DNA of 64,000 bases from Porphyra umbilicalis (Eukaryota; Rhodophyta; Bangiophyceae; Bangiales; Bangiaceae), in NCBI GenBank assembly GCA_002049455.2, contig KV919006.1, positions 56,976 to 120,975 of the forward strand. The letters are read 5' to 3'. Of the stretch, positions 37,115-41,937 are shown piece after piece. The notes beneath the pieces were generated by a model, which did no database searches, had not been told where the DNA came from, and was given only the letters and a program-made list of their open reading frames with translations. Position 1 is the first letter of the stretch; every line of letters begins with the position of its first letter. A program made the translations under genes and the position numbers.

Positions 37115-40075
37115 GTGCCCGCCCCGTCAGCACCAGTGACCGACCCCGCCCCACAGACAGCTGGTGGGAGCGGCGGTGGGGATGGCGGGGGCGGGGACGG
37201 CCCCGTCGACGGACCCGTCGACAACGACCTCGGCCGTGACGACGCCGTCACGCGTCTGGGTGCGACCGGCGGGGACGCGTCCATCAAGGCTGGCGGCCAC
37301 ATAGACGCCGCGCGACAATTTGCCGCATCTGCCGTGCGGTCAGCGACGGTCGAAGTCGCCGCCGCCGCCGCCGCGTGCGAGGCGGCCGGCGACGTGGGGC
37401 CGGTGGGCCCCTTGCGAGACGCGAGCACCCTGCTGGCAAAGCTGCTCGCAGCAAACCCCGTGCACGCGCGGTGCACCACGTCGTACGCGTCGGCAGCGCT
37501 GGGCGACGCCGAGTCGGCCTCGACCACAGTGCTGCGAGCCGTCGACGCGGTGACCGTGCCGCCGCATCGACCACCCGCTGCCGTCCTTGGGGTCGGCGGC
37601 ACGGCAGACGCTGCCGCCGGCGCTGCGACAGGTGCCGACAATGCCGCGGTGGTCGCCTGTCGGCGCCTGTGCGCGCGCGCCCGTCACTCCGCAAGCAGCG
37701 TCTTGTCCGCGGCCAAGGGCTTGATCCCCATGGCAACCCCCGACGCGGGGGACCACCCGGGAAACGACGCGGGTGCCGGCGCAGGGGGCGCGCCGGCGAG
37801 CCGCGGCGGCGGCACGCGTGCTCGCCTGCGCCGATGCGGCGGCTGCGGGACAACGGGGCACAATGTGAAAACGTGTGCAGCCGACGCAGCCGCCAAGGCG
37901 GCGCACGCGGCGCGTGTGGCGGCCGCCGGGGCGGCCAAGGGCGCCGCGGCCGGCAGCGGCCGTACCAGGTGCGGTGCCTGCCACGCGCGGGGCCACACGC
38001 TCGCGAGCGCAGCGTGTCCGCTGCGTGCCGTCGCCCACGGCTGGTCGGACCACAATGAGGACCGCGGCCGCGACTTGGCGTGCGCCGTCCAGTACCGCAT
38101 GACGGGAGAGGTGACGACGACGGTGGCCGTGTCGGTCGACCGGTTTTTTGGCGTCTGGCGGCGGAGGCTTTCGCGGCCGCCCACAGACTGCGTGCCGCCA
38201 GCAGAACGCCCGCCGACCACCTCGGCTCATTGCCAAACCGAGGCGTCTGTCGACGCCGTCACAAACACGGCGGCGGGCGCGGCTGCGCTGACAGAGTTGG
38301 CTACGGCGCAGACGCAGCATCTGCGCCTCGTCTCCGTTGTCATGGACGGAACGATGCCGTACCTGCTCGAACGCGTCGACGGTGGTGGCGGCGGGCTGGG
38401 TGCGGGTGGTGGTGGCGGCGGCAGACGCACGCTCGACGATTTTATGGCGGCCGTGCCGGCGTCGCTGACGGGCAGCCACGGGCTTGCCTGGAAGCAGGTC
38501 GCTTCGACCGTCTCTTGCCGTGGTGTCCACGCGTTTGGCGGCGCCCCCCGGCGGGCGTGTGCGTCGTTCTCGGGGCAGGGCGCACACGCCAAGCAACGTG
38601 GCGATGTCAAGGCAGCAACCGGTGACGGTGAATACACCGCCTTTGTTGCCGCGTCGGCGGCAGTGGCGGCGGCCGTAACAGAGCCAGAGCAGCTGCCGTG
38701 CAGTACACTCCTTGCGGCTCCGGGCGACACGGCCGGCTCGGCGACCGTGGCAACATCGTTTGAAAACCACTATGTGACGCACGTCACGTCGGCGGTCAAG
38801 GCCATTGTAGAGTGCATCGTCCTCGCGGTCTACCCACAGACCCCGGGCGGGTCAGACGGGCACCCCCACGCGGCACTGGTCTACGCCCTCGTGTCCGGCC
38901 TGCACGCTGCCGACGGCAGCCCCCCGCCGATGGTAGGGTGGCCGGCGGGCACACCTGCAGCGGACGGGCAAGCCATGGCGGCCGCCGCGACGCTGGCCTA
39001 CGACAGCGTGCTCGTGTACACGGATGGCGGCGGTCGGCGGCGCTCGCTGCTGCACCTAGACACGTTGGCCCTGCGACAGCGGTCACTGCACGTCTACCCG
39101 CTGCTGCACTATGCCCAGGCCCTGTGCGTCGGCGCCGGCATCGAGGCGGCTGACACGGCACCCGGCCGAGTCGCTACGTGCACCGCGTACGCCCGCGTCA
39201 GCGGCATGCTTCTCCGCCGGCGTCTGGCAGTCAACGGGGGGTCCATCCCACCACAGACGGCCGACGGTTTGGTCGTGCAGACGCTGCTCCGCCGCACGGG
39301 CATCATCCGCGCCGCGACCGTCGTTGGCCCCTCCATCGTGTCGAACGGCGTCGGCGTGCACTTTACGATACGACACCCCGCCTCTGCCGCGTCGACGGCG
39401 GCCGCACGGCGGGCGCGCCGCCGGGCGGCCAGTGACGGTCGCGGGGGGGTGGGTGCGACCGAGACGGAGAGTGTGCGGACGCAGCTCGACCGCATGGCGT
39501 TTGCGCCCGATGCTGTCAAGGCGCTCGTCTTTGTCGGGTGGGACCCGAGCGTCGCGTCCATCGTCGCTGCCTACTGCCCCGGCGCAGTCCCGTATGCGCT
39601 CTCAACGGCACCGCACCTGCACGCGTACCGGGCGTATCGGGCGCTGCGGATTGCAGCCGACGCGCTCGCGCGGGTGGCCATGGCCGCGACCGCCGCTGCC
39701 GAGTGCCACGTGCGGCGCAGCGGTCGGTTACTGCCGACCGTCGACGCGCTGCGAGCAAAGGTGGCCCAGATTGTTCGTGCGTCCAAGGCCACCGCGGCGG
39801 GCCTACCCGTCGGCGGCGGTGACGCGGTGTGCGGGACGACCAAAAAGCGCGGCCGTGGCGCGCTCGGCGCGTCGACCGGGGCGGAGGGATCTCCCCCAAA
39901 GCAGAGTCGTGGAGCTTTGCTGGGCCCGACGGCGGCCACACCGGCGGCGCAGGCGTCTTTGCCGCCTTTGGAGCACGCACCGACGGAGCTGGCCGCTGCG
40001 CTGGATCCCCCCCCCCCCCTGACCCGCCCAAGCGGCTGCGGTACACGCAGCCGGCATACGGCGACGCGTGGTTGA
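37115..40075 (+). CDS. Fanzor (TnpB-like) nuclease, N-terminal frame with RuvC-I
   Basis: The open frame begins upstream of any ATG; the first in-frame ATG is at 37730 (CCCATGG), so the start is there or in an unseen exon. Counting codons from 37115, an Ala-rich N-terminus is followed by two zinc-knuckle-like motifs (CGGCGTTGHNVKTC ~241-254 and CGACHARGH with a later C ~286-301). A long helical region follows, then VFVGWDPSVASIVA (~805-818), which fits the RuvC-I motif with catalytic Asp at about 39542. A basic stretch KKRGRG (~910-915) could be a nuclear signal. The frame ends at 40075 just after a C13 tract, beyond which the natural continuation is in the next frame. Fanzors are eukaryotic RNA-guided DNA endonucleases carried by transposons. 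RuvC-I placement is by context and would need an alignment. Confidence 0.72.
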   Translation: MPAPSAPVTDPAPQTAGGSGGGDGGGGDGPVDGPVDNDLGRDDAVTRLGATGGDASIKAGGHIDAARQFAASAVRSATVEVAAAAAACEAAGDVGPVGPLRDASTLLAKLLAANPVHARCTTSYASAALGDAESASTTVLRAVDAVTVPPHRPPAAVLGVGGTADAAAGAATGADNAAVVACRRLCARARHSASSVLSAAKGLIPMATPDAGDHPGNDAGAGAGGAPASRGGGTRARLRRCGGCGTTGHNVKTCAADAAAKAAHAARVAAAGAAKGAAAGSGRTRCGACHARGHTLASAACPLRAVAHGWSDHNEDRGRDLACAVQYRMTGEVTTTVAVSVDRFFGVWRRRLSRPPTDCVPPAERPPTTSAHCQTEASVDAVTNTAAGAAALTELATAQTQHLRLVSVVMDGTMPYLLERVDGGGGGLGAGGGGGGRRTLDDFMAAVPASLTGSHGLAWKQVASTVSCRGVHAFGGAPRRACASFSGQGAHAKQRGDVKAATGDGEYTAFVAASAAVAAAVTEPEQLPCSTLLAAPGDTAGSATVATSFENHYVTHVTSAVKAIVECIVLAVYPQTPGGSDGHPHAALVYALVSGLHAADGSPPPMVGWPAGTPAADGQAMAAAATLAYDSVLVYTDGGGRRRSLLHLDTLALRQRSLHVYPLLHYAQALCVGAGIEAADTAPGRVATCTAYARVSGMLLRRRLAVNGGSIPPQTADGLVVQTLLRRTGIIRAATVVGPSIVSNGVGVHFTIRHPASAASTAAARRARRRAASDGRGGVGATETESVRTQLDRMAFAPDAVKALVFVGWDPSVASIVAAYCPGAVPYALSTAPHLHAYRAYRALRIAADALARVAMAATAAAECHVRRSGRLLPTVDALRAKVAQIVRASKATAAGLPVGGGDAVCGTTKKRGRGALGASTGAEGSPPKQSRGALLGPTAATPAAQASLPPLEHAPTELAAALDPPPPLTRPSGCGTRSRHTATRG
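40007..40019 (+). other. C13 tract where the Fanzor frame shifts
   Basis: Thirteen C residues encode prolines on both sides. Upstream frame: ALDPPPP. Downstream frame: PPPPDPPKRLRYTQ. A 14-C tract, or a -1 slip, would make one continuous frame. It could be a sequencing or assembly error in a homopolymer, a real inactivating indel, or slippage used in expression. Confidence 0.75.

Positions 40076-41937: not shown

Follow-up and report, generated by a model that had tools for sequence, protein, structure and literature searches.

Does the red alga Porphyra umbilicalis (Bangiales) carry an intact gene for a Fanzor RNA-guided nuclease, broken in the assembly by nothing more than a run of cytosines? 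The question was raised by a 64,000-nucleotide stretch of contig KV919006.1 (assembly GCA_002049455.2, positions 56,976 to 120,975 of the forward strand), hereafter called the window. There, an earlier reading of the letters (the original prediction) had placed a Fanzor gene complete in its motifs, split by a homopolymer frameshift, and coding for an active protein if the frame were continuous. The locus proved to be a real, decayed member of a multi-copy family of large Fanzor1-like transposons and, the C tract aside, it is not an intact gene. The explanation that we favour, and consider probable, is that of a 5'-truncated and frame-broken copy of a red-algal transposon of about 8.7 kb, encoding a very large Fanzor1-type protein that would be RNA-guided in intact copies.

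Two reading frames with Fanzor motifs

The features of the locus, in window coordinates, are the following:

37056..41981, + strand: Fanzor transposon remnant, sharply bounded on the right at 41981 (some alignments give 41982), its left end cut off compared with other copies
37115..40072, + strand: frame A (P0001, 986 aa), the stop-free N-terminal part, reaching beyond RuvC-I
37961..38029, + strand: stretch resembling a CCHC zinc knuckle (zf-CCHC_6 at 17.3 bits, under the cut-off of 22)
39542..39544, + strand: codon of the RuvC-I catalytic Asp, in GWDPS
40007..40019, + strand: 13-C tract, junction of frames A and B, its length varying among copies
40009..41937, + strand: frame B (P0002, 642 aa) with its stop codon, comprising linker, RuvC-II region, TNB zinc finger, RuvC-III and C-terminal tail
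41032..41067, + strand: DEHNTSQTCAEC, holding the displaced glutamate of RuvC-II (41035-41037) together with the first zinc-finger half
41377..41394, + strand: CTNVAC, the second zinc-finger half, 103 residues after the first (counted on the sibling copy L022)
41410..41424, + strand: GRDTN, RuvC-III, with its Asp codon at 41416-41418
41913..41981, + strand: predicted fold, ACCAG ... CTGGT, that closes flush with the right end, a candidate 3' end of a guide-RNA scaffold

Frame A is open from 37004 and meets a stop 18 codons beyond the tract; frame B begins inside the tract and is stop-free from 40009 to 41934. The bounds first proposed, 37115-41937, hold for the gene frames, the element remnant itself reaching from 37056 to 41981. 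The GC content of the gene (71%) is uninformative on its origin, since other stretches of the window reach 70-78%.

As predicted, the motifs follow one another in Fanzor order over the two frames: the RuvC-I Asp at 39542, the glutamate at 41035 (in DEHNTSQTC, from 41032), the zinc-finger halves (the first with CAECG at 41056) and the RD of RuvC-III at 41413. This succession of D, TS-x-x, C4 zinc finger and RD is the Fanzor1 order, which Bao and Jurka 2013 (PMC3627910) defined together with a D-X(125,275)-[TS][TS] spacing. Six residues lie between zinc finger and RD in L022, within the published X(5,50). The displaced glutamate, defined as standing six residues before the first CxxC (PMC10711439), is found as E1622 in L022, where the first CxxC starts at C1629. 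Among 21 sequences compared, RuvC-I reads DPG in 14 and DPS in two (the window copy, which thereby departs from the family DPG, and L039), and five gave no pattern match; in the window copy the RuvC-I Asp, whose loss was to have refuted the prediction, is kept. All of the Asp, Glu, four-Cys and RD patterns were retained by 12 of the 21 in a pattern search.

As for domain profiles, frame B matched PF07282 (TNB of TnpB/Cas12f) over the DE-x-x-TS/zinc-finger stretch with an E value of 8.7e-6 and 26.2 bits, 0.1 below the cut-off of 26.3. The same profile was matched by all eight members of alignment A1, window protein included, at E values up to 1 (best 6.1e-8). In PHROGs, the zinc-finger motif was covered by a weak match to 'transposase' (E 0.003). 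Matches to antibodies, triosephosphate isomerase and the like among PDB sequences were judged to be chance.

Relatives within and outside the genome

The host genome was searched as 83.8 Mb in 665 contigs. Frame B gave 77 translated matches there (69 of 116 candidates scored), seven protein relatives outside this genome (E < 1e-30) and a more distant hypothetical protein of Pyropia yezoensis, another red alga of the Bangiales (E 1.3e-14). Given these matches, frame B is not a chance open frame, and the Fanzor-type identity originally proposed is supported by motif order, displaced glutamate, TNB domain and relatives. A search from the Pyropia yezoensis protein added five relatives, and a search from frame A gave five.

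Concerning Pyropia yezoensis, I4F81_012695 (P0010) shares 38% identity with frame B over 172 residues, the C-terminal halves aligning clearly (E 8e-21). Alignment of the N-terminal halves is weak, with 33% identity around RuvC-I over 72 residues (single comparison, E 0.011). I4F81_004571 (P0011) holds GGDPG and DEFNTSQACSEC in a single chain, as in the family. Both differ from it in being annotated merely as hypothetical and in having shorter gene models. P0014 likewise combines DPG and the NTS/zinc-finger motif in one chain, with K at the glutamate position, and the relative P0009 is continuous across the linker.

A multi-copy element of roughly 8.7 kb

The Fanzor gene is part of a DNA transposon that measures roughly 8.7 kb, is present in many copies and holds no other gene that was recognised. 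In 18 of 20 sibling loci, the right end is sharp at the position equivalent to window 41981, with unrelated DNA beyond; L027 and L037 carry another 3' module in its place (L027 7344-8027 and L037 5222-5918, gene orientation), and the antisense frame in the module of L027 had no Pfam match. With at most two mismatches allowed, the genome has the terminal 26 bases at 65 places (reversed control: 0), and the last 120 bp are 98-100% identical at the best 40 of 111 candidate places. Two copies whose flanks differ have a left end in common (ATTGAACCC / ATTGACCCC ...), which occurs at 16 places, some of them partial. When 11 left ends were tested for a partner, seven had a right end within 14 kb, giving spans of 8,677, 8,694, 8,710, 8,715, 8,740, 9,415 and 9,891 bp, and four had none. 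The longest span holds a 1,155-bp insert. In the C3 copy (L043 joined to L022), which has the continuous frame, the 1,155-bp insert has inverted ends and lies within the 5' part. In L023, L024, L030, L031 and L032, which make up a second subfamily, the 5' region is another one, and along its length the window copy is similar now to one subfamily, now to another.

The window copy begins at 37056, which corresponds to codon 294 of the L022 frame, and is therefore without some 74 codons from the likely start and everything upstream; no match to this missing part was found elsewhere in the window.

As to the class of the element, no transposase was found in the 10 of 16 listed open frames scanned from its 5' region, no Rep among the 10 element frames scanned, and no target-site duplication was seen by eye at truncated copies and two left ends. 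Of the traits expected of a Helitron2-type carrier, terminal hairpins and a RepHel source in the genome, hairpins are predicted near both ends, and the genome has 28 Helitron_like_N matches, none shown to share these ends. The 5' truncation was considered as a sign of target-primed retrotransposition, an idea weakened by Ty1/copia sequence left of L021, L025 and L035 (recognised by homology and open frames, domains being scanned in L025 only). Separately, a segment of about 956 bp is common to L027 (1047-2001) and L036 (4451-5406, in gene orientation), in opposite orientations and at different positions of the element.

Sibling copies and the C tract

In L022 (C3, in the same genome), a single frame of 1,921 codons spans both window frames, with the RuvC-I Asp at residue 1124, the glutamate at 1622, TS at 1625, CxxC from 1629, CxxxxC from 1736 and RD at 1748-1749. 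Judging from the siblings, frames A and B belong to one protein, and the proposal of a single split gene finds its confirmation in this continuous frame. A methionine common to L022 and L030, residue 220 of the L022 frame, is the probable start codon, which would give a protein of about 1,702 residues.

At the tract position, a C run of at least 9 is present in 17 of 20 loci, its length ranging from 9 to 20 with nine different values; L021, L022 and L027 list no such run. Among the 18 siblings with the usual right end, at least five (L021, L022, L023, L031 and L033) read through without a shift, L033 having a stop elsewhere, and 10 look frame-shifted, a count that leaves L036, L038 and L039 unscored. 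The original prediction held that one extra C in sequencing reads would support an intact gene. With siblings varying in this way, at least five through and 10 shifted, a different base count alone would not be proof of one. The homopolymer frameshift is real as a break in the sequence, and the 5' truncation at 37056 comes in addition to it. Nor does activity follow from a continuous frame, because the copy stops at 37056 where others continue; besides the lost N-terminal codons and upstream part, it has DPS for DPG and a spacing off the published motif.

The frame break may nevertheless be a homopolymer assembly error and nothing else, the gene being continuous save for its truncated start, an explanation compatible with the family reading. 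Long C runs are hard to sequence, and runs of at least 13 C are abundant in the assembly (45,144 forward and 42,334 reverse overlapping positions); the nine tract lengths among 17 loci and the otherwise stop-free state of both frames point the same way. Such an error would not restore the missing 5' part, however, and many siblings bear other stops, as real decay predicts. On balance, we regard an assembly error as a serious possibility that falls somewhat short of being probable.

Substitution patterns in the Fanzor frame

The ratio of nonsynonymous to synonymous divergence (dN/dS) was 0.44 (mean dN 0.054, mean dS 0.121) over 66 pairs from 12 stop-free sequences, the seven sequences with stops being left out. 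Around DE-x-x-TS and the first zinc-finger half, a stretch of 50 codons gave a dN of 0.016 and a dS of 0.140. Substitutions are in excess at third positions across most of the frame, with no such excess just before the tract (0.27 at third positions) or in the last 160 codons. These patterns indicate that the Fanzor frame is under purifying selection. Synonymous divergence falls toward the 3' end, from about 0.2 to about 0.04, over some 850 nt. A guide RNA might be behind this drop; exchange between copies in recent times accounts for it equally well, and fits both its extent of about 850 nt and the mixed subfamily resemblance of the window copy.

The right end as a candidate guide RNA

Fanzor proteins bind RNA from the transposon end and cut guide-matching DNA (PMC10432273, PMC10711439, PMC11423790). 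By analogy, intact copies of the present element would encode a RuvC nuclease bearing an Asp, a displaced Glu and a further Asp, acting like Fanzor/TnpB. Its guide RNA would cover the 3' end of the gene and the element's right end and run on into flanking DNA, and cleavage of the empty site by the guided nuclease would help the element to persist. That the right end supplies a guide RNA is plausible, as the place of this conserved end and its predicted fold both agree with it. The fold, of the terminal 74 nt, closes on the last base with a z-score of -3.0; a repeat gave -2.6, lower than each of 30 control windows taken from that gene. We infer RNA guidance from family resemblance more than from the right-end data. 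A match of the right end to the Rfam guanidine-II riboswitch (17.7 bits for a cut-off of 32) was taken as chance.

Within 400 nt upstream of 40 of the 65 right ends, a C-terminal gene tag was found (at most three mismatches); it was not found at the other 25. Five of these 25 have a same-strand gene body further upstream, at 8.4 kb (C116, C447 and C38) or 16.6 kb (C288 and C55). This spacing is as if a fixed-size unit lay in between once or twice. The remaining right ends could stand alone, in parallel with the 'ghost' loci reported for Spizellomyces punctatus (PMC10432273), or be what is left of decayed copies.

Weighing the Fanzor reading

Several results weigh against a family of RNA-guided, Fanzor1-type nucleases. 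At the protein level, Asp and TS are separated by X = 500 in L022, outside the published range of 125-275. The profile search suggested as a check, which gave the near-threshold TNB match, brought 12.3 bits for NCBIfam NF040570 (guided_TnpB), whose cut-off is 100. Among nine further relatives, PF07282 was weak in P0011 and P0012 (13.9 and 15.0 bits), and P0013 and P0014, both covering the motif, had no match to it at E values up to 0.1. Sequence searches against solved Fanzor, TnpB and Cas12 structures in the PDB gave no match. AlphaFold models reached a mean predicted local distance difference test score (pLDDT) of 34 for window 40690-41640 with relatives and of 40 for Pyropia P0011 with relatives, too poor for a fold search, so that the RuvC fold stays inferred from sequence. 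At the right end, the last 200 nt do not stand out (z -2.69; -2.44 in a repeat, with 3 of 18 control windows at or below). Double changes that keep pairing occur in two of 24 fold pairs, in one sequence each, with no excess over the control, and no covariation support for the terminal fold was found. The tail of L039 differs at 14 of 75 positions, and random substitutions keep the fold energy as well as those of this divergent tail (23% and 65% as good); the 40 near-identical tails were the best-scoring ones.

Part of this would be explained by a Fanzor-derived protein with another job, for example DNA-binding or transposition-accessory, the use of a guide RNA having been lost in the clade. 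The size and spacing would then make sense, with some 900 to 1,100 residues and weak zinc knuckles ahead of RuvC-I, 500 residues from Asp to TS, and zinc-finger halves set 103 residues apart; DPS in two sequences and lysine at the glutamate position in P0014 agree with it. Yet 12 of 21 sequences retain all catalytic and zinc patterns, selection is strongest there, and the right end shows the strong conservation that one would expect of a stretch read as RNA. A change of job seems to us unlikely.

Still less credit can be given to the C tract as a functional slippage site for polymerase or ribosome, yielding a short N-terminal protein and a fused nuclease, or acting as a state switch. The variable run in 17 of 20 loci and the 18 codons by which frame A passes the tract would suit it, but three loci do without such a run, the continuous copy L022 among them, and P0009 crosses the linker without a comparable proline run. 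The substitutions just before the tract lack codon periodicity, and mutation alone accounts for the change in length. The least credible reading of all is that the gene stems from a large DNA virus that has integrated, and not from a transposon. Fanzor1 genes do occur in such viruses (PMC3627910), but none of 13 pattern matches in viral contigs was confirmed as a relative, and the gene lies in units of about 8.7 kb that recur with constant ends among unrelated flanking DNA.

Likeness to known Fanzor systems

The family shares with Fanzor1 proteins (SpuFz1, GtFz1 and PpFz1) the RuvC D, the displaced E beside the zinc finger, the RD after it and a place in a eukaryotic transposon, as well as DPG in the 14 sequences mentioned. 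It differs from them in a predicted size of about 1,700 aa, most Fz1 proteins having 600-700 aa (PMC11423790), in the larger spacing and zinc-finger gap, and in having no sequence match to the solved ones. Fanzor1-like variant, rather than standard Fanzor1, is therefore the best name on sequence features: motif order, glutamate and zinc-finger-to-RD distance agree with the published definitions, Asp-to-TS spacing and the guided_TnpB profile do not, and DPG and TNB are mixed.

Among described elements, CMe-1A of the red alga Cyanidioschyzon merolae (about 3 kb, about 150 copies) is, like the present one, a high-copy red-algal Fanzor1 element without terminal inverted repeats and of unknown transposable element class (PMC3627910); the present element is longer, at about 8.7 kb, and the two are likened by description, not by sequence. 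The MCi-2 Fanzor1 elements of Mucor circinelloides also combine a constant 3' part holding the Fanzor gene with variable 5' parts, but have target-site duplications of 11-12 bp (PMC3627910), a feature that went unseen by eye here. The FRI insertion of PpFz1 adds about 100 residues to the nuclease part, as does the gap in the present zinc finger, but is described within RuvC (PMC11423790), whereas here the 103 residues part the zinc-finger halves. In the open-licence literature, no paper linking Fanzor with Porphyra or Pyropia was found.

A broader proposal is that Bangiales-type red algae hold a separate giant Fanzor1 clade, with an 8.7-kb element, a gene end doubling as guide RNA, and gene-less right ends that include stand-alone guide loci. 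Its traits would be a size of about 1,700 aa, a large N-terminal part with zinc knuckles, a 500-residue spacing from RuvC-I to TNB, and a split zinc finger. In this full form, the proposal is speculative and we hold it doubtful.

Neighbouring sequence in the window

Just left of the Fanzor truncation lies a PIF/Harbinger-type transposase gene (35495-36526, - strand; Plant_tran PF04827, E 2.3e-44). To the right, positions 44071-45363 form a near-perfect palindrome of two 632-bp arms, 97% complementary and 29 bp apart; palindrome-like sequence stands beside the Fanzor copies in L040 and L026, and its end sequence was seen by eye upstream of L030. The window further contains an open frame of 1,325 codons that encodes a Ty1/copia gag-pol (22519-26493, + strand), another of 1,738 codons whose product combines NB-ARC and WD40 domains (1288-6501, - strand), an architecture that we take to be STAND-type, and a 769-codon open frame with an AAA ATPase domain (52718-55024, - strand).

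Meaning for the family

The window copy itself is a relic, and it is the family that merits specialist attention. The Fanzor1 kind was already known; the large red-algal form is the new part. If the favoured explanation is true, a family more than twice the usual Fanzor1 size would show how far the RNA-guided nuclease core extends, and its dozens of copies with different flanks would provide natural sets of guides and targets for testing the role of Fanzor in transposons.

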